In this document: positions 6,268 to 15,361 of the stretch, one piece after another | How positions within the stretch are numbered: position 1 is the stretch's first letter | Layout: the number at the start of each line of letters is the position of its first letter | Assembly: GCA_022841665.1 (NCBI GenBank) | Contig: JALHRB010000033.1 | Location: 1-40,269, forward strand | Origin: Pseudolabrys sp. | GTDB taxonomy: Bacteria > Pseudomonadota > Alphaproteobacteria > Rhizobiales > Xanthobacteraceae | Length of the DNA: 40,269 nucleotides | Reading direction: 5' to 3' | Made by a program: the position numbers and the translations under genes | The notes under the pieces: generated by a model | What the model saw: only the letters and a program-made list of their open reading frames with translations | What the model was told of the DNA's origin: nothing | Databases searched by the model: none

Positions 6268-7143
6268 TCAGAGCGGCGGGGTGGCGATGTCGTCTTCCTG
6301 CGCGGCCACCTGCGTCGTCTCCGGCGGCTCGATCTTGCGCGTGCGGTGGCGCTCGAAGAAGGCGAGCATCTGCGCGCGGCTGTCCTCAGTGGCGGCCTTG
6401 TCGAAGCCGATGAGTTTGCCGAGGTAGCGCTGCTGGCCGATCGGCAGGTCGAAGGAATGCGCGGCGTTGCGGTACTCGACCAGCTTCAGGTGCGCGCCGA
6501 CCGCGCGCTTGCCGCGGCACTGCCAGGCCGGCACCCAGTCGTCGCGCTGGCCGGCGAAGATGATGAGCGGCGCACTCAGCTTCACGCGCCGGCCGCCGAG
6601 CGAGCCGCACCAGGGATAATAGGCGGCGACAGCGCGATAGCCGCGCTTGCTTTTGGCCTTGGCCGCGTTGATGGCGACGCTGCCGCCGTTGCTCTGGCCC
6701 ATCAGGAAGGTGTTGTCGGCATCGACGAAAGGCTGCGCCTGCAGATAGCGCAGCGCGTCGAACGCGTCATGGGTGCGGTAGCCAAGCGCGCGCGTAAGTC
6801 TGGGGATGCTTTCGCAGATGACGCCGCCGCCGGTGCCGCGCGTGCCGAAGCTGTCGAGGTTGAGCACGACATAACCGGCTTCGAGCAAGGCGGTTGCGTG
6901 CAAATGCAATCCGTCCAGCACTGCGGGCTGCCAGCCGCCGCAGCCGTGCATCAGCACGACGGCGGGGAAGGGGCCTTCGCCCTTCGGCTTGAACAATTCC
7001 GCGTGCAGATGACTGGCGCCGACCGGCCGCGTCGCCTTGATCGACACGATTTCGTAACCGGCGGCGGGCGTGACGATGCTCGCGGCCAGCAGCAAAGCCG
7101 GCAGCCACCGCAGATGCTTCTTGCTTCCAGACTTCCAAGCCAT
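6268..7143 (-). CDS. Secreted dienelactone-hydrolase-like alpha/beta hydrolase
   Basis: The 291-residue product starts at ATG 7143 with a signal peptide (KKHLRWLPALLLAASIVTPAAG, cleaved near residue 28-30), so it acts in the periplasm. The frame is open to 7272, but upstream residues lack coding character. The alpha/beta hydrolase fold is shown by VVLMHGCGGW (oxyanion region), the nucleophile elbow MGQSNGG with Ser151, an acid candidate Asp201/202 in GQRDDWVP, and His229 in NAAHSFD. Dienelactone hydrolase relatives often use Cys; here it is Ser, suggesting an esterase. The substrate is unknown. It is a single gene, divergent from the PqqD-like operon across about 450 bases. Confidence 0.82.
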   Translation of the reverse strand: MAWKSGSKKHLRWLPALLLAASIVTPAAGYEIVSIKATRPVGASHLHAELFKPKGEGPFPAVVLMHGCGGWQPAVLDGLHLHATALLEAGYVVLNLDSFGTRGTGGGVICESIPRLTRALGYRTHDAFDALRYLQAQPFVDADNTFLMGQSNGGSVAINAAKAKSKRGYRAVAAYYPWCGSLGGRRVKLSAPLIIFAGQRDDWVPAWQCRGKRAVGAHLKLVEYRNAAHSFDLPIGQQRYLGKLIGFDKAATEDSRAQMLAFFERHRTRKIEPPETTQVAAQEDDIATPPL

Positions 7144-7595
7144 GCGACCCCCGATGAGGACATGCGGGTACGGTCGTCCAGCGGCGAGCACGCCGCCGGC
7201 TGAGCCGGCGCGCTCACGATCTGCTCGTTCAAGTCTTCTTCCGTGTCTTGGCGGCAAGACCGCCCGGCCCACTGGTCAGCCGCGCGTCTTCCTGTTGTCG
7301 GCGCCCGGCGGCGAATTCGCACGCGGGCGCCGGCATTTCATTGCGCCGGGCTAGATCGCTTGGTCGCTGACACCGTGCCGTTGTGAAGCCGCGCCAACCG
7401 GGAGCGACCGTTTGTCTCGGACGTGCCGCACCATCTTCCCTTCGCGAGGGCCAAGCCTTGCACCATTTGCTTCATGAGGGAAGCGGCGCTCGTCTTAACG
7501 ATGGTACGCAAATCCGCATTGATGTCAGAACCGTACCACCGCGCCTTTGAATTATTCCCTATGGTGATCCGTAAAATACGAGATGTGTTGGTGAA
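7144..7595. other. Divergent spacer between the hydrolase and the PqqD-like operon
   Basis: This 452-base region is GC-rich near the hydrolase and visibly AT-richer from about 7490, as expected of a promoter. It contains a 7-bp inverted repeat, TGGTACG (7502-7508) and CGTACCA (7532-7538), about 60 bases before the operon start. No clear -35/-10 pair was found. The only open frame on the plus strand (7423-7677) runs into the PqqD-like gene in another frame and lacks a ribosome binding site. Confidence 0.5.
7502..7538. promoter_or_regulatory. Candidate operator upstream of the PqqD-like operon
   Basis: TGGTACG at 7502-7508 and CGTACCA at 7532-7538 are perfect inverted copies with a 23-base centre. 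The position and symmetry fit a regulator site, but no known consensus is matched. Confidence 0.25.
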
Positions 7596-7880
7596 ATGCG
7601 TAGTCAAAGCGAAACTCAGGCGGAGCACGTCGACCGCGCGTCGCGATTTCGTTTTTACGGCGATCAGTTCCTGTTGAATACCGTTTCCGGAAAATTTTAC
7701 CGTTTGACGCCGACCGCCGCCTTCATCTTGCGTGCGCTGTTGGCCGGCAAGAATAATGACGAACTCGGTGCAATCGTCGAGCAACGCTACGGCGTCGACC
7801 GTCCGCGCGCGGTCCGTGACGTCGAGCTGTTTCTGTCCGAGCTGCGTTCGCTCGGAATTATCGAAAATCCGAGTCATTAA
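7596..7880 (+). CDS. PqqD-like protein (stand-alone RiPP recognition element fold)
   Basis: This 94-residue protein has the PqqD layout. An N-terminal beta hairpin (FRFYGDQFLLNTVSGKFYRL) resembles the strands that bind a leader peptide. A helical part follows with TAAFILRALLAGKNNDELGAIVEQRYGV and a final helix VRDVELFLSELRSLGIIE. PqqD-fold proteins (RiPP recognition elements) hold precursor peptides for modifying enzymes. No PQQ genes are nearby, so this is not PQQ biosynthesis. It starts at ATG 7596 with only a weak ribosome binding site and ends three bases before the ATP-grasp gene, so the two are co-translated. It may instead bind another small partner; that is inference. Confidence 0.8.
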   Translation: MRSQSETQAEHVDRASRFRFYGDQFLLNTVSGKFYRLTPTAAFILRALLAGKNNDELGAIVEQRYGVDRPRAVRDVELFLSELRSLGIIENPSH

Positions 7881-7883
7881 CCA

Positions 7884-8963
7884 ATGACCGACGTCACCGT
7901 CGCGATCACCGGGCTGCACCGCGGTGATAATCCGCAAGCGGGCGCGTCGGTTATCCGCAGCCTGCGCCGTGTCCTGCCGGACATCCGCGTCGTCGGACTT
8001 TCATACGATCCGCTGGAGAGTGCGCTCTACAGCCGCGGGATCGACCGCGTTGACGCCACCTACCTGCTGCCCTTTCCGATGAAGGGGCCGGAAATGCTGC
8101 TCGACCGGCTCACTTACATTCACAGGAAGGAGAAGCTGCGTATCGTTATTCCTTGCCTCGACTCCGAGATTCTCAACTTCATGATGATTTCCCCCGAGCT
8201 CAAGGACATGGGGGTTGCCGCCATGCTGCCGAGCCCGTCCGCGTTCGAGTGGCGGGCCAAGGAAAATCTCGCCGGCTTCTGCCGGCTGCATTCGATCTCG
8301 ACGCCGCGCACGTATGCCGCGCAGGACGTCGCCACCCTGGCGCGTTATGCCGAGGAGATCGGCTATCCCGTCTACGTAAAGGGAAAGTACTACGAGGCCT
8401 GGCTCGTCTATTCGGCGATCGAGCTGGCCGAACGGTTCGACGAGATCGCGCGCGTATGGGGCACGCCCATCCTGGTGCAGGAGGCCTTGTTCGGCGACGA
8501 GTTCGACGTGGTCGGCCTGGCCGACGCTTCCGGCGGCATGGTCGGACACTGCGCGATCCGCAAACTGCTGCGCACCAAGAACGGCAAGGGCTTCGGCGGC
8601 ATCGTCGTCAACGACCCCGAGATCGACCGCACGGCGCGCCGCATTATCAAGGCGCTGCGCTGGACCGGCCCCTTCGAGATCGAGTTTCTCAAGGCGCCCA
8701 ACCGGCCGCACATGCTGTTCGAGATCAATCCGCGCTTTCCCGCCTGGATCGATTTCCCCTCGCAGATCGGCTGCAACCTGCCGCTTCGTCTCTACGAGAC
8801 GCTGCTCGGCAAAAAGCCGAGCAAGCTCGAGGTCTGCGACGCCGGTCAGATGTTCATCCGGCACAGCGTCGACCTGGTGGGCGATATCTCCGAGCTGGCC
8901 AAGCTGTCGAGCGACGGCGAATACGTGGCCGGTTCACTGTCCAAGGTGGAGGCGAGAGCATGA
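7884..8963 (+). CDS. ATP-grasp ligase (CarB-like, unassigned substrate)
   Basis: ATP-grasp enzymes join a carboxylate to an amine or thiol through an acyl phosphate. The 359-residue product has an N-terminal Rossmann-like pre-ATP domain (MTDVTVAITGLHRG). The ATP-grasp core has Lys126 (RAKENLAGFC) and Lys166 (YPVYVKGKYYEA), a hinge at VQEALFGDEFDVV, and metal ligands in FEIEFL (Glu265, Glu267) and FEINPRF (Glu280, Asn282, with Arg284). All core residues expected for activity seem present. It resembles carbamoyl-phosphate-synthase-like and amino-acid ligases, not D-Ala ligase or PurK. Its stop overlaps the next start (ATGA at 8960-8963), indicating tight coupling with the PLP decarboxylase. The likely job is amide formation on an amino acid or peptide. 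Confidence 0.88.
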   Translation: MTDVTVAITGLHRGDNPQAGASVIRSLRRVLPDIRVVGLSYDPLESALYSRGIDRVDATYLLPFPMKGPEMLLDRLTYIHRKEKLRIVIPCLDSEILNFMMISPELKDMGVAAMLPSPSAFEWRAKENLAGFCRLHSISTPRTYAAQDVATLARYAEEIGYPVYVKGKYYEAWLVYSAIELAERFDEIARVWGTPILVQEALFGDEFDVVGLADASGGMVGHCAIRKLLRTKNGKGFGGIVVNDPEIDRTARRIIKALRWTGPFEIEFLKAPNRPHMLFEINPRFPAWIDFPSQIGCNLPLRLYETLLGKKPSKLEVCDAGQMFIRHSVDLVGDISELAKLSSDGEYVAGSLSKVEARA

Positions 8964-10387
8964 GCCCGTACGATTTTCCCACGATCTCGAGCGAGCTCGG
9001 CCGCTCGCCGGAAGCCGCCATCGACCGCAATTACTATTCGCGCGGCGCCTTCGTGCCGCCCTTGCCCGCCATCGACGGCATCGACGTCAACCGGCTGGTG
9101 CGCGAGTTCGGTTCGCCTTTGTTCGTGTTCTCGGAGCGTGACTTGCGCGCCAAGGCGCGCCGCGCCAAGGAAGCCTTCGGCAGCCGCTACAAGAAGAGCG
9201 CCTTCGCCTGGTCCTACAAGACCAACTATCTCAACGCCATCTGCCGGATATTTCATACCGAAGGCTGGCTCGCCGAAGTCGTTTCCGATTTCGAGTACGA
9301 GAAGGCGCGCGCGCTCGGAAATCCCGGCAAGGACATCATCTTCAACGGCCCGCACAAGCCGCGCGCGGTGCTCGAACGCGCGCTCGCCGAAGGCGCGCTG
9401 GTGCATATCGACAATTGGGACGAGCTCAACCTGATCGAGGAGTTGGCGCGCTCGCTGAAGAAGCCGGTCGACGTGGGCATCCGGGTCTGGCTCGACTGCG
9501 GCATTCGCCCGATCTGGACCAAGTTCGGCTTTGCGCTGGCCAATGGCGAGGCCGCGCATGCCGCCGCCCGTGTGATCAAGAACCCGAAGCTCAACCTGCA
9601 CACCATCCACACCCATATCGGCACATATATTCTGGCGCCGGAAGCCTACCGCACGGCGACGCAGAACCTGGTCGCGTTGCGCGAGCAGCTTTTGCTCGAG
9701 CACGATCACCTGGTGCCTTGCCTCAATCTCGGCGGCGGCATTCCGTCCAACAGCCTGCTGCACGGCATGGCCAAGCCGGCGGAGCACGTTATCCACCCGA
9801 TCGAGGACTACGCGGAAGCGATCACGGGCGTGCTCAACAATTTGCCCGAGAATCGGAAGCCTTGGCTGCGCATGGAGATGGGACGGCATTTGGTCGACGA
9901 GGCCGGCTACCTTTTGACCTCGGTCGTCGCCATGAAGGGGCACGACCGCCCGACTCCGACCACGACCGACCTGTCCGCCCGCACCGCCAAGGAGTGGCTG
10001 CTGCTGCAGGAGGATTCCAAGCGCGGCATCGTGGTCGATGTCGGCGTCAATTTCCTCTACACCGCGGCCTGGTTCGAGATCGGCGTCTGGCCGGCGCGGC
10101 TGGTCAACACGCCGGCCATCCCGACGCGCCTCTACGGCAACCTGTGCATGGCGATCGACGTGATCCGCGAGACCGTCGACCTGCCGACGCTCGACGTCGG
10201 CGACGTGCTCACGCTGCATCCGGTCGGCGCCTACAATTTCACGCAGTCGATGCAGTTCATCGACTATCGGCCGGCGGTCGTGCTCATCGCCGACAACGGC
10301 AAACCCGAGCTCATCCGCCGCCGGGAAATACTGGCCGACATCAATGGCCCGGAGCTTCTACCCGCGCGTTTGGCGCGCAAGACGTGA
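8960..10387 (+). CDS. Fold-type III PLP-dependent decarboxylase (LysA/DapDC-like)
   Basis: This 475-residue protein has the alanine-racemase-type barrel followed by a C-terminal beta domain, as in diaminopimelate, ornithine/arginine and carboxynorspermidine decarboxylases. Visible motifs are the PLP lysine Lys87 in WSYKTNYL, TKFGF (187-191), HTHIGT with His219, the glycine loop LNLGGGIP (255-262), EMGRH (306-310, normally EPGR), the C-terminal Cys396 in GNLCMAID, and GAYNF with Tyr425. A 50-residue N-terminal extension precedes the barrel. It is not an obvious housekeeping LysA because of its divergence and operon context. It starts at ATG 8960, overlapping the ATP-grasp stop. The substrate is unknown; an amino acid or its ligated derivative is the natural guess. 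Confidence 0.88.
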   Translation: MSPYDFPTISSELGRSPEAAIDRNYYSRGAFVPPLPAIDGIDVNRLVREFGSPLFVFSERDLRAKARRAKEAFGSRYKKSAFAWSYKTNYLNAICRIFHTEGWLAEVVSDFEYEKARALGNPGKDIIFNGPHKPRAVLERALAEGALVHIDNWDELNLIEELARSLKKPVDVGIRVWLDCGIRPIWTKFGFALANGEAAHAAARVIKNPKLNLHTIHTHIGTYILAPEAYRTATQNLVALREQLLLEHDHLVPCLNLGGGIPSNSLLHGMAKPAEHVIHPIEDYAEAITGVLNNLPENRKPWLRMEMGRHLVDEAGYLLTSVVAMKGHDRPTPTTTDLSARTAKEWLLLQEDSKRGIVVDVGVNFLYTAAWFEIGVWPARLVNTPAIPTRLYGNLCMAIDVIRETVDLPTLDVGDVLTLHPVGAYNFTQSMQFIDYRPAVVLIADNGKPELIRRREILADINGPELLPARLARKT

Positions 10388-10432
10388 CCGGCGCCGCGCC
10401 AGGGAGGCCGTCCTCTTTCCGGAGCGCGTAAC

Positions 10433-12607
10433 ATGGTTCGCCTGCGCTTTCTTGCCCTCGCTCTCGGCAACCCGTTCATGATCAAGTCGCCGTGGATCGC
10501 CGGCCTGCTCTGGCTGGCGCTTCTGCGCGACATCCGCTTTCCGATCTTCGCCTTCATTGGCCTGGTGGTGGCTGAGGGGGTCGCCTGGGCCCTCGGCACC
10601 GGCGAGAAGGTGAAGCGGGAAGGGGCCCTGCGCGCCAATGCGATCTTCGCCTCGCTCGCGGTGGCTTGGCTGACAACGGGCAGCGACGCTACCCTGGAAG
10701 TCCAGCTCGCCGTCGAAATCTGCGCTGCCATCGCCGCCGCGCTGATCGCCGCCGCCTTCGTGCGCGGCCTGCGCGACACCATCCTGCCGCCGCTCGGCTG
10801 GGGCTTCTGCTTAGTCGCCGGTTTCCTGATCACGTTGTTCTCCGCCTGGACGCATACCGCGCTGTCGGAGACGCTCGACTGGCCGCGGCCGCTCGACGCG
10901 CTCGGCTGGGTGGAGTCGTTCTTCCGCTCGCTCGGCATGCTGCTGTTCCTGCCCAAGGTGGAGTCGGGCGTGCTGGTGGCGCTCGCCATCCTGCTCTGGT
11001 CGCGGTTGATGCTGCTGACCGGCATCGTCGGCTGGATCGGCGGCATCGCACTCGGCCTCGCGCTCGAGCGCATGGGGCTCAATTACCAGTGGCTACTGGC
11101 CGCGCATAATTACTTTCTCGCCGGCATGGTGCTCGCTTCGGTGTTGTTCCTGCCCGGCCGCGGCACCGTCTTCATCGCGCTCGCCGCCGGCATCGCCGCC
11201 TCGGCGCTGTCCGCCTATTTCCAGTATCTTTTTCCCGGCTCGGCTTACGCCTTCCTGCCGATACCGGCGATGCTGTCGATCTGGCTCGGCGTCGGCGCGC
11301 TGCTGCTGCGCGACGACAGCGGCTATTTCCGCCGCAATATGGCGGCCGACATCCCGCCGGAGATCGCGTGGTGGAATGCAGCCTACTGGAGCGAGCGCTT
11401 CGGCGTGAACGAGCCGCTGCTCGGCGTTCCGCTCGCGGGGCCGGTGCAGCTCACGCAAGGTTTCGACGGGCTGCTCAGCCATGTCGGCCGCTGGCGCCAC
11501 GCGCTCGATTTTCAGCGCCCGGTGCCGGCGGGGCCGGCCGCTGCGGCGGCGGGCACGATCTGGGAAGCGCCGGTTTACGCGCCGGCCGGCGGCATCGTCG
11601 AGCGCACGCGCGCCGACGTCGCCGACAATCCGCTCGGCATCTCCAACTTCGCCGATATGTGGGGCAACTACGTCATCATCCGCCTCGACCGCGGCGGCTG
11701 GGCGCTGCTCGCGCATTTCCGGCAGGGCACCGTGGCGGTGGCTACCGGCATGCGGGTCGAGCCCGGCACTTATCTAGGCCTCGCCGGCAATTCAGGCCGC
11801 TCGCCCGCGCCGCACTTGCATATGCACGCGCAGTCCTCGTCCGAGGTGAGCGCCTCGACGCAACCGTTTCGCCTGGCGAACTTCCTCTCCGCCGTCGGAC
11901 CGGCGCCGCCGCCGGCTTTCACGCGCTGGAACGCCGCGGCGGTGCCGGCGGTCGGATCGGTGGTCGAGGCTGCGCGCTTCAATCCAACGGTGCACCGCGC
12001 CGTCACCAGCGTGGCGCCGGGCACCACGGTGTGGCGGGTCGAAACCGAAGGCACCATCCCGCGCCAGTACCGCGGCTATCACACCGGATCGGCGGTGCGT
12101 GTGCGCATCTTCATCGACGAATTCGGCCGCCATGTTTTCAAGTCGCATAACAACGGCGCGCTGATCGCGGCGGCCGATACCGATGCCTGGCGGCTGGTGG
12201 AATTGCGCAGCGTCGGCTGCCCGCTGCTGAAGCTGATCGCCTTCGGCACGCCGTCGATCCCTTATGCCGCCCACACGACGATGGACTGGATCGAACCGGC
12301 CCCGCTGCTGCAGACCGGCCCCGACGGCTGGTTCTCGCTGTTGATCTCGCCCTACCGCACGCACCCGTTTTCATATCTCATGTGCACTTGCACGGCGGTG
12401 CCGGACGACTTCAGCCCCACGCTGACGATCGAGGCCAAGCCGGTCATTCCGCGCCGCGGCGTTCCGGCAAAGGTCGTCTGCCACCTCGAGATCCTACGCG
12501 GGCCGGTGAAAGTCGAGGCCGTGTTCGACGACGGCAAAATTACTTTCAGTATGTTTTCATTCGAACCGGGCCTCCCGTTTGAGCGGCGCGACAAGCGGCG
12601 CAGCTGA
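10433..12607 (+). CDS. Urea-channel-like 10-TM protein fused to an M23 metallopeptidase domain
   Basis: The 724-residue product has two parts. Residues 1-295 contain about ten transmembrane helices in two similar halves. SPWIAGLLWLALL, LRANAIFASLAVAWL and LPPLGWGFCLVAGFL in the first half correspond to SGVLVALAILLW, HNYFLAGMVLASVLF and YAFLPIPAMLSIWLG in the second. This is the pseudo-twofold pattern of urea transporters. Residues 340-490 form an M23 (LytM-like) peptidase with RWRHALDF (His356, Asp359) and SPAPHLHMH (His461, His463), the zinc ligands. The remaining 230 residues are beta-rich. Ribosome binding site GGAG is at 10421-10424. It follows the PLP gene by 45 bases. M23 domains cut peptidoglycan cross-links or other peptides outside the cytoplasm, so the operon may export and process a product. 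Confidence 0.8.
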   Translation: MVRLRFLALALGNPFMIKSPWIAGLLWLALLRDIRFPIFAFIGLVVAEGVAWALGTGEKVKREGALRANAIFASLAVAWLTTGSDATLEVQLAVEICAAIAAALIAAAFVRGLRDTILPPLGWGFCLVAGFLITLFSAWTHTALSETLDWPRPLDALGWVESFFRSLGMLLFLPKVESGVLVALAILLWSRLMLLTGIVGWIGGIALGLALERMGLNYQWLLAAHNYFLAGMVLASVLFLPGRGTVFIALAAGIAASALSAYFQYLFPGSAYAFLPIPAMLSIWLGVGALLLRDDSGYFRRNMAADIPPEIAWWNAAYWSERFGVNEPLLGVPLAGPVQLTQGFDGLLSHVGRWRHALDFQRPVPAGPAAAAAGTIWEAPVYAPAGGIVERTRADVADNPLGISNFADMWGNYVIIRLDRGGWALLAHFRQGTVAVATGMRVEPGTYLGLAGNSGRSPAPHLHMHAQSSSEVSASTQPFRLANFLSAVGPAPPPAFTRWNAAAVPAVGSVVEAARFNPTVHRAVTSVAPGTTVWRVETEGTIPRQYRGYHTGSAVRVRIFIDEFGRHVFKSHNNGALIAAADTDAWRLVELRSVGCPLLKLIAFGTPSIPYAAHTTMDWIEPAPLLQTGPDGWFSLLISPYRTHPFSYLMCTCTAVPDDFSPTLTIEAKPVIPRRGVPAKVVCHLEILRGPVKVEAVFDDGKITFSMFSFEPGLPFERRDKRRS

Positions 12608-12622: not shown

Positions 12623-12931
12623 GCACGATGTCCACATCTATAAATTAACGGCGCGTTCAACACGCAAACGCGTGCGCGCATCGCCGGGATGATTCGCGGT
12701 CTTTCATGCTGCGCGCCAATGCGAATTTGTTTTTGCGCGGGTGTGCGGCCCGGCGCGCTGCGGAAGCAAAATTGAAAAGTGGTATTACAATTATACCGAG
12801 CGATACGGCCACCACTTATCGCGTCGATTGAATGCCCCCACACCCACGCCTAGCGTTTTTGCGTGCGATTCGTGTCGCACATCGCTTCGGAATGCAGCGC
12901 GAACACGTCTCAAACATTTGGGTGGGTTCGA
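12623..12931 (+). other. Intergenic region upstream of the BcsS-like gene
   Basis: This roughly 310-base region marks the end of the PqqD-like operon. It holds an AT-rich patch at about 12765-12800, including GGTATTACAATTATACC (12781-12797; arms GGTAT and ATACC), a possible promoter or operator for the downstream gene. No well-spaced -35/-10 pair could be assigned, and no coding sequence was seen. Confidence 0.4.
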
Positions 12932-13735
12932 ATGGCGTCCAATCAAAACCGGACTGGATTTGTTGCGCGGTGCGTCAGGGTCGCGCGCGCCGCGGCCTGC
13001 GCCGTCTGCGCTGTGGCCGCGCCCGTCGCCGCCCACGCCGCCGACACGGCGGTGAAGGCGAGGCCCCCCCCGGCGGCGCCCGTCAAGATCTACAGCACGG
13101 TGCTGTTCGGCGGCTTCGACTACCGCAAGGACAGCTACTACGGCTACGGCGGCATCGTCGCCGCGTTGAACGGCAACATCGCCACCGACGGCTTCCTGGT
13201 GCGCGCGATGGGTCTCTACAATCCCTACAGCTACACCTCGACCGCGGTGGCCGGCGGCATTGTCGACGGCAAGATGAGCGCCGGCGAAGCGATGATCGGC
13301 TACCAGAAATATTTCCCGGGCGTGACCGCGCGGCTGTTCGTAGGCGTGGACTACGAACATCACAAGCTGTCGCCGAGCAATCCGCTCGATCGCAACGAAG
13401 GCACGCACTGGGGCGTGCATGCGCGCGGCGAACTGGAAGCGCCGTATCTCTCGCAGTGGTACTATAACCTCCATGGCAGCTACGGCTCCGCTACCCAGCG
13501 CTATTGGGTGCGCGGCCGCGTCGGCTATAATTTCGCCGGCGTCATTGTCGGCCCCGAGGGCCTCGCCACCGGCAACTGGGTCTCGAACGAACAGCGCGTC
13601 GGCGGCTTCCTGATGTTCAGGAGCCCGCAACTGGCGCCCTTCGAAGTGTCGTTCTCGGGCGGCTATTCGCAAACCGACGATATCCGCGGCGGCAAGAGCG
13701 GCTACGGGACGGTCGAGCTTTCGGTGGCGTTCTGA
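12932..13735 (+). CDS. bcsS: BcsS-like outer-membrane beta-barrel protein
   Basis: The 267-residue product begins MASNQNRTGF, with a basic stretch and a signal peptide ending VAAPVAAHAAD (cleavage near residue 38). The mature part alternates short polar turns with aromatic beta strands (VLFGGFDYRKDSYYGYGG, NLHGSYGSATQRYWVRGRVGYNF) and ends in SVAF with a terminal Phe, as in outer-membrane barrels. The pattern matches BcsS, found near cellulose genes in alphaproteobacteria, but no bcsA/bcsB genes are in the window, so the role is open. The frame is open from 12863; ATG 12932 is chosen because it gives a normal signal peptide. Confidence 0.6.
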   Translation: MASNQNRTGFVARCVRVARAAACAVCAVAAPVAAHAADTAVKARPPPAAPVKIYSTVLFGGFDYRKDSYYGYGGIVAALNGNIATDGFLVRAMGLYNPYSYTSTAVAGGIVDGKMSAGEAMIGYQKYFPGVTARLFVGVDYEHHKLSPSNPLDRNEGTHWGVHARGELEAPYLSQWYYNLHGSYGSATQRYWVRGRVGYNFAGVIVGPEGLATGNWVSNEQRVGGFLMFRSPQLAPFEVSFSGGYSQTDDIRGGKSGYGTVELSVAF

Positions 13736-13777
13736 ACGCGTGAACTCGTGCCAATGCTGGGCGCGGAGGGCAGGGCG

Positions 13778-15361
13778 ATGCGCTACGGCGGCAAGCTTCG
13801 GTGCTTCGGCTTCGTCATCGCGACGGCAATGCTGCTCGTGGCCACGCCGGCGCAAGCGCAAAGGCCGCCCGCGGGCGGCCAATCGGTCCTGCGCGTCGTG
13901 CCGCATGCCAATCTTACGCTGCTCGATCCGACCTGGACGTCGATCTACATCACCCGCAACCACGGCTACATGATCTACGACACGCTCTTCGCCGTCGACG
14001 CGGAGGGTAGGCCGAAGCCGCAGATGGTCGATAGCTGGACCACGTCGCCGGACGGCATGACCTGGACCTTCAAGCTGCGCGACGGCTTGAGGTGGCACGA
14101 TGGCGCGGCCGTCACCGCGGAGGACTGCGTCGCTTCGCTCAAGCGCTGGGGCAAGCGCTCGGGCGTCGGCCAGCAACTGTTCGACGAGATCGCGGACATT
14201 TCAGCGAGCGATGCCAAGACCATCGCGATGACGCTCAAGCGCCCTTACGCCTACGTGCTGGACGCGCTCGCCACCCTGTCGTCCTACGTGCCCTTCATGC
14301 TGCCGAAACGGCTGGCCGAGATCGACCCTGCCAAGCCGGTCGAGGAGCAGATCGGCTCCGGGCCTTTCATCTTCAAGAAGGACGAATTCGTTCCCGGCGA
14401 ACGCGCCGTCTATATCAAGAACACCGCTTACGTGCCGCGTTCCGAGCCGCCGTCCTGGGCGGCCGGAGCCAAGCTGGCCAAGGTCGATCGCGTGACCTGG
14501 ACGCGCTACCCCAGCCAGGAGAAGGCGATCGAGGCGCTCATCGCCAACCGCGTCGACTACATCGAGGAGATCGCCCCGCGCTTCGTGCCACGCCTGGAGC
14601 GGCGCGCCGACATCGTGATCGGCAAGACCGGCCCGGAGCCCTTCGTCGGCATGGCGCGCTTCAACCACCTGGTGCCGCCGTTCAACCGGCCGGAGGTCCG
14701 CCGCGCCGTGATGATGGCGATGAACCAGACCGACTACATGAACGCGGCCATCGGCGTGCAAAGATACTGGAACACCTGCTACTCGGTCTTCACCTGCAAG
14801 AGCCCGTACGCGAACGAAGCCGGCAGCGACTTCCTCAAGAACGGCACCATGGCGGCGGCCAAGGCCGCGCTCGACGCCGCCTATGACGGCACGCCCGTCG
14901 TGCTGCTGAACGCCGTCGACATTCCGGTAGTCGCCGCCTTCAATCGCGTCACCGCCGACAAACTGCGCCAGCTCGGCATCACGGTGGTGATGCGCAACAC
15001 GACCTGGGCCGAGATGACGCTCAAGCGCGCCGACCGCAGCGGCTGGAACATTTTCCACACCTTCTGGTCGGGCGTCGACCTCGGCAACCCGGCGCACATC
15101 GCCTATTCGGGCGATCCGGTGAACGGCTGGTTCGGCTGGCCGGACGACAAAGAGCTGGAGGACTTGCGCGCGCGCTTTGCCGTCGAGCCCAGCGCGGACG
15201 AGCGCAAGAAGCTCGCCGCCCGCATCCAGGAGCGCATCTGGGCGGTCGGCGCGTCGGCCTATCTCGGCGAGTTCCACCTGCCGGTGGCCTTCCGCAAGGC
15301 GGTCGAGGGCGCCATCGTCGCGCCGGTGCAGTTCTACTGGAACATGTCGATCAGGCGGTAG
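13778..15361 (+). CDS. ABC transporter substrate-binding protein, family 5 (oligopeptide/dipeptide type)
   Basis: The 527-residue product starts at ATG 13778, which has GGAGG at 13765-13769; upstream in-frame starts at 13748 (GTG) and 13754 lack one. A signal peptide ends ATPAQAQ. The mature protein has the family 5 layout: LRVVPHANLTLLDPTWT, YDTLFAVDAEGRPKPQMVDSW, LRDGLRWHDGAAVTAEDCV, and FNRPEVRRAVMMAMNQTDY. Such proteins bind peptides, nickel chelates or sugars in the periplasm for an ABC importer. No permease or ATPase gene is adjacent, so its partner must be elsewhere. It follows the BcsS-like gene by 42 bases and may share its transcript. Confidence 0.9.
   Translation: MRYGGKLRCFGFVIATAMLLVATPAQAQRPPAGGQSVLRVVPHANLTLLDPTWTSIYITRNHGYMIYDTLFAVDAEGRPKPQMVDSWTTSPDGMTWTFKLRDGLRWHDGAAVTAEDCVASLKRWGKRSGVGQQLFDEIADISASDAKTIAMTLKRPYAYVLDALATLSSYVPFMLPKRLAEIDPAKPVEEQIGSGPFIFKKDEFVPGERAVYIKNTAYVPRSEPPSWAAGAKLAKVDRVTWTRYPSQEKAIEALIANRVDYIEEIAPRFVPRLERRADIVIGKTGPEPFVGMARFNHLVPPFNRPEVRRAVMMAMNQTDYMNAAIGVQRYWNTCYSVFTCKSPYANEAGSDFLKNGTMAAAKAALDAAYDGTPVVLLNAVDIPVVAAFNRVTADKLRQLGITVVMRNTTWAEMTLKRADRSGWNIFHTFWSGVDLGNPAHIAYSGDPVNGWFGWPDDKELEDLRARFAVEPSADERKKLAARIQERIWAVGASAYLGEFHLPVAFRKAVEGAIVAPVQFYWNMSIRR

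Follow-up and report, generated by a model that had tools for sequence, protein, structure and literature searches.

A conserved bacterial gene module in which a stand-alone PqqD-fold protein may dock a leader-tailed decarboxylase to an ATP-grasp ligase

Discrete recognition elements (RREs) for ribosomally synthesized and post-translationally modified peptides (RiPPs) are found in lasso-peptide pathways, where they bind a [Y/W]xxPx[L/V/I/F/A] motif in the precursor leader; in LppB, residue D70 makes a bond to the leader Tyr, and the Pro kink is kept in place by N33 (both from excerpts of PMC13381572). A broad W/Y/LxxP group, with PqqD and FusE among its members, is described in an excerpt of PMC12710340. 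In the butirosin pathway, the decarboxylase BtrK acts on glutamate bound to an 87-amino-acid (aa) carrier (excerpt of PMC7857480). Here we describe a four-gene operon at positions 7596 to 12607 of a 40,269-nucleotide stretch of Pseudolabrys sp. DNA (contig JALHRB010000033.1 of assembly GCA_022841665.1; this whole stretch is termed the window) that encodes a stand-alone PqqD-fold protein, an ATP-grasp ligase, a pyridoxal phosphate (PLP) decarboxylase with a leader-like tail, and a urea-transporter (UT) channel fused to an M23 metallopeptidase (UT-M23). The four genes are a conserved module across many bacterial phyla. The reading we favor, at a probability of about 0.5, is that the RRE docks the tailed decarboxylase to the ATP-grasp ligase, and that an N-acyl diamine is made and leaves through the UT channel.

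The four open reading frames (ORFs) all lie on the plus strand, and the gaps between successive genes are 3, -4 and 45 bases. The first (7596..7880) encodes the PqqD-fold protein of 94 aa, an RRE that matched PF05402 at 52.1 bits compared to a cut-off of 23.4 (E 8e-14) and had lasso_PqqD_Strm as its best NCBIfam match (E 2e-13, under the family cut-off). It is followed by the gene for a carbamoyl-phosphate-synthase-like ATP-grasp ligase of 359 aa (7884..8963; ATPgrasp_Ter PF15632, E 5e-7) and by that for an alanine-racemase-fold, LysA-like PLP decarboxylase (8960..10387; Orn_Arg_deC_N, E 6e-25; Orn_DAP_Arg_deC, E 6e-10). The ATG of the decarboxylase gene, with its start read at 8960, overlaps the TGA of the ATP-grasp gene by 4 bases; the ORF list gives this gene as a longer, TTG-start ORF from 8153. 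The last gene (10433..12607) encodes UT-M23 (UT PF03253, E 2e-19; Peptidase_M23, E 1e-10). An earlier note on this DNA, made from the sequence alone, had reported four co-directional genes at this spacing, and the ORF coordinates together with the Pfam and NCBIfam matches confirmed this arrangement. No defence-system match was returned by PADLOC for any of the four operon proteins.

The earlier note had set co-conservation of the four families, by neighborhood search, as a test of its proposal, and the families were found to be clearly co-conserved across phyla, in gene order as well as in content. At least 543 relatives of the ATP-grasp ligase were confirmed when named genomes were scanned with a profile, and the best-scoring 80 of them were taken as the named loci; the sample thus leans towards close relatives. 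The ATP-grasp and decarboxylase genes were detected in all 80 loci, PqqD in 79 (75 in one count and four added by another, with L053 the exception) and UT-M23 in 74, the remaining six loci being cut by a contig end. By HMM search, a PqqD homolog was found to adjoin the ATP-grasp gene in 94 of 96 loci. The named loci span nine phylum-level groups: Proteobacteria, Bacteroidetes, Chlorobi/Ignavibacteria, Cloacimonadota, Planctomycetes, Verrucomicrobia (Chthoniobacter), Armatimonadetes, Myxococcota and Melainabacteria. Because the genes co-occur across 80 loci of such breadth, we conclude that the set is not due to chance. Likewise, no published pathway to which the homologs belong was found in the open-access literature searched, in agreement with the earlier note, and no description of the four-gene module was found in the same literature, an earlier report elsewhere being possible.

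Within the window's genus the ATP-grasp gene is patchy, with a match better than E 1e-170 in 3 of 24 genomes (its own included) and weak matches only in three further genomes. When 299 genomes were sampled from the window's phylum, the ATP-grasp ligase was detected in 37 at E <= 1e-30. All 37 also had the decarboxylase (E <= 1e-90), and in 36 the two genes were adjacent on one contig by coordinates; in G108, one ATP-grasp copy reaches the contig edge, with a decarboxylase start after it. UT-M23 was found in 32 of the 37 genomes, and in two that have none (G216 and G237) the contigs, of 4278 and 3343 bases, stop at the decarboxylase. Full-length UT-M23 without this ATP-grasp ligase was detected in G084 and G112, and contig-edge pieces of UT-M23 in G211 and G212. 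Plasmid records with a match numbered 24, and among the 20 matches listed identity was at most 27.6%.

The leader-like tail of the decarboxylase lies at residues 4-14 counted from the initiator Met (8969..9001, plus strand). Its [Y/W]xxPx[I/L/V/M] motif was present ahead of the catalytic domain in 100 of 100 decarboxylase relatives read to the upstream stop, with Tyr as the first residue in 85 and Trp in 15. These tails include 86 distinct 18-mers, near copies being present among the loci (L038, L002 and L144 are apparently one contig). As a control, 980 other called ORFs of at least 100 aa from the named loci (mechanical calls, some surely spurious) were searched, and the bare motif was found within the first 45 residues of 19, ten of which also had the following Gly. 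Among 16 LysA-family genes from the same genomes, the motif was detected in all five operon copies and in none of the ten paralogs with a readable N-terminus (11 were read; L162 was left out, its N-terminus being cut, and the L163 gene is interrupted by an internal stop). The word decarboxylase is absent from the main text of both PMC12710340 and the RRE-Finder paper (PMC7470986).

A further decarboxylase homolog, in G080 (E 1.5e-157), is an orphan that has an N-terminus without the tail, and no ATP-grasp, PqqD or UT-M23 gene was found in the surrounding 18 kb (the PqqD search recovered 94 of 94 positive controls). This tail-less homolog (L172, 9128-15689) adjoins a 975-aa protein, an AAA-type ATPase and a TIR-like protein, as labeled by eye, and these neighbors suggest that the decarboxylase is reused in another system.

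Precursor peptides were also sought. In the fetched loci, no separate precursor with the strict tail pattern was found, the sole flagged match (L087) being itself a decarboxylase tail. Small ORFs of 20-90 aa with a looser motif were absent from the window, and in other loci (L038 and up) gave scattered matches with no evident pattern. A separate precursor peptide was therefore rejected. These same results would suit an alternative in which the tail is itself a RiPP-like substrate that PqqD presents and the ATP-grasp ligase modifies or loads, with the fused decarboxylase acting on the attached group and M23 releasing the peptide or loaded fragment. The leader motif, the ATP-grasp ligase and peptidase that adjoin the RRE, an M23 domain predicted to be cytosolic (see below) and a second conserved block in most tails, G-x(1-3)-NK[F/Y]G, all agree with such a substrate. 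However, the NKFG block is missing from the window's clade, which instead has ELG and a later RN, and thus the tails have no one modified residue in common; they also lack the variation usual for RiPP cores. We consider this alternative doubtful, and it is unlikely that the decarboxylase is its own RiPP-like substrate with a channel-borne peptidase that releases the product at the cytoplasmic face and allows its exit.

In the docking that we favor, the stand-alone PqqD would bind the YxxPxI tail at the decarboxylase N-terminus, as lasso-peptide RREs bind precursor leaders, and would thereby bring the decarboxylase to the ATP-grasp ligase, giving a cytoplasmic ligase-decarboxylase assembly organized by the RRE. 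The sequences lend this docking good support; the order of the reactions, the substrate class, the product and its export are inferred. Counterparts of LppB N33 and D70 were placed by motif in 94 aligned PqqDs, and the spacing between them was found to be 37 residues in 91 of the 94, equal to that from 33 to 70 in LppB. The D70-like position was Asp in all 80 Tyr-tail loci, and in the 14 Trp-tail loci was Asp (8), Ala (3), Ser (2) or Gly (1). At the N33-like position, Asn was present in 14 of 14 Trp-tail loci and in 66 of 80 Tyr-tail loci, with Ser in nine and Thr in five of the latter. On the tree, one change accounts for the Trp tail and one for the Asp loss, and these were counted as one event. 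As such, the covariation of this Asp with the tail is consistent with a contact between the two proteins; it was rejected as independent support, there being one tree event only.

The same PqqD alignment bears on a carrier pathway like that of butirosin BtrI-BtrJ-BtrK or LysW, in which the ATP-grasp ligase would load PqqD with an amino acid, followed by decarboxylation and release. BtrK, which acts on carrier-bound glutamate (excerpt of PMC7857480), is among the solved relatives of the operon decarboxylase. By eye, however, no shared C-terminal residue, lysine or serine site was seen in the aligned PqqDs, and the family matches are to peptide binders. PqqD as a covalent carrier was set aside as improbable, no shared site having been seen by eye, and the carrier pathway as a whole appears very unlikely. 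The small carrier proposed by the earlier note was thus not found, and the likely partner of PqqD is instead the N-terminal tail of the decarboxylase.

In eight proteobacterial loci (L121, L122, L123, L124, L126, L128, L129 and L135), PqqD is the C-terminal part of a protein of 263-276 aa. Four of these fusions were scanned, and TetR_N was detected in three (over the cut-off in L122 and L129 and just below it in L124), with PqqD only in L128. The RRE may thus also serve gene control in such loci, where it may sense the decarboxylase tail.

The solved sequence nearest to the decarboxylase was the N-citrylornithine decarboxylase 7kh2 (E 8e-47). The window's enzyme has the loop C395-M396-x-I398-D399 and the lysine K86 (numbered without the initiator Met), and the C-M-x-I-D loop and K86 were invariant in 38 of 38 aligned relatives. 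This loop is C-E-[S/T]-G-D in diaminopimelate (DAP) decarboxylases and C-M-Q-H-D in FigC, in which M355 stands in for the acid that holds the side-chain amine and H357 faces citrate. The acid that binds the distal amine is lost here, the DAP-binding Glu being Met in all 38, and the counterpart of the citrate-facing H357 is Ile. The enzyme falls outside the LysA family, having no Glu beside the catalytic Cys and scoring 199 bits compared to a cut-off of 298, and also outside FslC/FigC, which are marked by Met 355 and His 357 and of which it has the Met only. Based on the Met and Ile of the Cys loop, we infer that the substrate is a diamino acid with its distal amine already acylated by a group unlike citrate. 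A citrate-type siderophore route like that of rhizoferrin, which the nearest solved sequence would favor, is made extremely unlikely by the Ile in place of the citrate-facing His and by a ligase of the ATP-grasp family and not an NIS (NRPS-independent siderophore) synthetase. Of 10 genomes tested, seven have a separate LysA over the cut-off, among them five of the eight with the tailed enzyme (G011, G020, G041, G053 and G160); thus it is improbable that the operon encodes the housekeeping LysA, with the reservation that the window's own genome (G000, 95% complete, 125 contigs) has no LysA over the cut-off.

The structural model of the ATP-grasp ligase was closest to 2pn1, a protein of unknown function, and PylC and an L-amino acid ligase were lower among many ATP-grasp enzymes; these predicted neighbors fit an amide ligase and name no substrate. 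In the proposed route, the ligase would join a diamino acid (lysine, ornithine or similar) to an unnamed acid through an amide, and the decarboxylase would remove the alpha-carboxyl of this N-acyl diamino acid, as FigC/FslC do on N-citrylornithine, to yield an N-acyl diamine. The earlier note's suggestion of ligation and decarboxylation fits.

UT-M23 is composed of a UT domain (aa 1-321; 10433..11395), an M23 domain (aa 325-488; 11405..11896) and a beta-rich C-terminal part (about aa 489-724; 11897..12607). Its model (pLDDT, the predicted local distance difference test score, of 92.7) gave the whole UT fold and the M23 domain by structure comparison. The C-terminal part had no Pfam match in the window's protein or in four relatives, and was barely covered by the structure comparison. 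The M23 site (H350, D359, H428, H461 and H463, which we take from the M23 family to be zinc ligands and catalytic His) was intact in 63 of 63 UT-M23 proteins. Urea transporters have the slot motif LPxxTxPF, and many relatives here have LPxLSLPF; in the window and its clade the slot motifs of the wider family (LPxLSLPF, LPF) are altered. With loop sides assigned from the UT repeat symmetry, the positive charges of the loops were found to be biased towards the side on which the termini lie in 55 of the 63 proteins, with one opposite and seven ties, and in all 63 when the termini were counted. Because of this charge bias, the M23 domain is probably cytoplasmic. Two Cys columns were also inspected, as a disulfide check for a periplasmic M23 domain; both Cys were present in 25 of the 63 proteins, one alone in 19 and neither in 19. 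A urea-type channel fused to a peptidase predicted to be inside the cell is odd by itself; the peptidase would be on the cytoplasmic side of the channel, where UT-M23 may cleave either the product or the tail and allow a small amide to leave.

This predicted location speaks against two further suggestions of the earlier note, that the M23 domain trims a product after export and that it acts on peptidoglycan. In a remodeling pathway of the latter type, a DAP-like peptide side group would be made or trimmed and M23 would act on the wall. The intact M23 site, a fold near those of wall peptidases, the LysA-like enzyme and the tetratricopeptide repeat (TPR) and barrel-like partners in many loci (see below) would all suit such a role. 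However, the loop charges put M23 in the cytosol, the DAP-binding Glu is replaced by Met, and a separate LysA is present in most of the tailed-enzyme genomes tested; we regard peptidoglycan remodeling as quite unlikely.

Several observations weigh against the docking and export that we favor. In G100, G164 and G204, UT-M23 is not found beside the decarboxylase. The equivalence of the D70- and N33-like positions rests on spacing, LppB itself being outside the alignment. Asp is retained in 8 of the 14 Trp-tail loci, 14 of the 80 Tyr-tail loci have Ser or Thr in place of the N33-like Asn (Thr in the window), and the Trp tail and Asp loss are a single nested event on the tree. NKFG, the second conserved part of the tail, is unexplained by docking alone and is replaced in the window's clade, and the regulator-like PqqD fusions of eight loci could mean gene control. 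With regard to the channel, the window's clade has an altered slot motif, and UT channels pass very small molecules, so that an acyl diamine may be too large. The same side was favored by loop charge in 9 of 11 unfused UTs, in which the mean charge of the two sides was equal (5.0 vs 5.5).

The conserved unit is larger than four genes, and includes a hydrolase and a solute-binding protein close to the operon in the window's clade and TPR and barrel-like proteins elsewhere, which come after the operon in many loci. The window's clade is one group of 15 members on the ATP-grasp tree (support 0.997). On the minus strand before the operon lies a gene for a dienelactone-hydrolase-like (DLH-like) protein (6268..7272; PF01738, E 5e-15) with a hydrophobic N-terminal stretch by eye. 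This gene is a conserved neighbor only in the window's clade: it was detected in every other clade locus tested but one (13 of 14, namely L038, L040-L048, L050, L052 and L118) and was missing from L039, the upstream side of which is cut, and no match at E <= 1e-10 was found in the loci of L038-L144 outside the clade. A family-5 extracellular solute-binding protein (13748..15361, plus strand; PF00496, E 4e-60) was found near the operon in 12 of these 14 loci, all of which also have the DLH-like gene; of the two others, each cut on one side, L038 has the DLH-like gene alone and L039 has neither. In the window, the operon and the solute-binding protein gene are separated by a gene for a BcsS-type protein of a cellulose-associated family (12863..13735, plus strand; PF17036, E 1e-42; a beta-barrel by eye), which among loci L038-L144 was detected only in L118 (G011). 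The long ORF after the solute-binding protein gene is on the opposite strand and reads by eye as a Lon protease, and thus no ABC (ATP-binding cassette) permease gene adjoins on that side.

Of the 80 named loci, 56 have TPR proteins of about 206 aa (cluster c4) and 30 have a TPR-plus-barrel-like cluster (c5). A TPR match was detected in 16 of 20 proteobacterial stretches, the exceptions being L118, L124, L125 and L131. By eye, clusters c5, c12 and c24 have signal-like N-termini and read as barrels, with no barrel family match. An alternative operon is present in L138 (G084) and L139 (G112), where UT-M23 is accompanied by a TPR protein, an Orn/Lys/Arg-type decarboxylase (PF01276 in both) and an ATP-grasp-like 500-aa protein. 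In G084 the latter has an ELNPR motif and is weakly similar to pyruvate carboxylase (E 4e-6). No PqqD was found at the alternative operon of either genome. It thus seems that UT-M23 has come to be paired with a ligase-like protein and an amino-acid decarboxylase on more than one occasion. A TPR fused to UT-M23 in L138 was considered and dropped once the frames were read; L115 may have such a fusion.

The RREs are known for catching RiPP precursors, and here a stand-alone RRE seems to partner an enzyme, in a module that reaches from Bacteroidota and Cloacimonadota to Myxococcota, Planctomycetota and Pseudomonadota. If this is true, orphan PqqD-like genes could be explained without a precursor peptide, and a search for leader motifs could reveal enzyme partners. 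The identity of the metabolite that this module yields in so many bacteria is a directly testable question.

Among known systems, the locus can be set beside the discrete lasso RREs (FusE/FusB1 and PbaB1; LppB of LPP), with which it shares a stand-alone PqqD-fold protein and a [Y/W]xxPx[I/L/V] leader and, with LppB, mostly Asn and Asp at two positions that lie 37 residues apart, as do the Pro- and Tyr-holding ones. It is unlike these systems in that the leader is on a decarboxylase of about 475 aa rather than a short precursor; neither a lasso cyclase nor a leader peptidase was found among the four core proteins and three neighbors scanned, farther genes being left unscanned. With the FigC/FslC enzymes of rhizoferrin, it shares the decarboxylase family, the Met beside the catalytic Cys, a GAYN motif and the logic of a ligase plus a decarboxylase, and it differs from FigC/FslC and their NIS synthetase in its ligase family, in the missing citrate-facing His and in the added tail and PqqD. 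UT-M23 is unlike the urea transporters dvUT and UT-B in its C-terminal M23 and beta-rich parts and, in the window's clade, in its changed slot motif. In the butirosin pathway, the ATP-grasp ligase is BtrJ. The BtrI-BtrJ-BtrK system resembles the locus in having a small protein and an alanine-racemase-fold decarboxylase that acts after ligation (excerpt of PMC7857480), and differs in that PqqD is probably not an acyl carrier, no loading site having been seen by eye.

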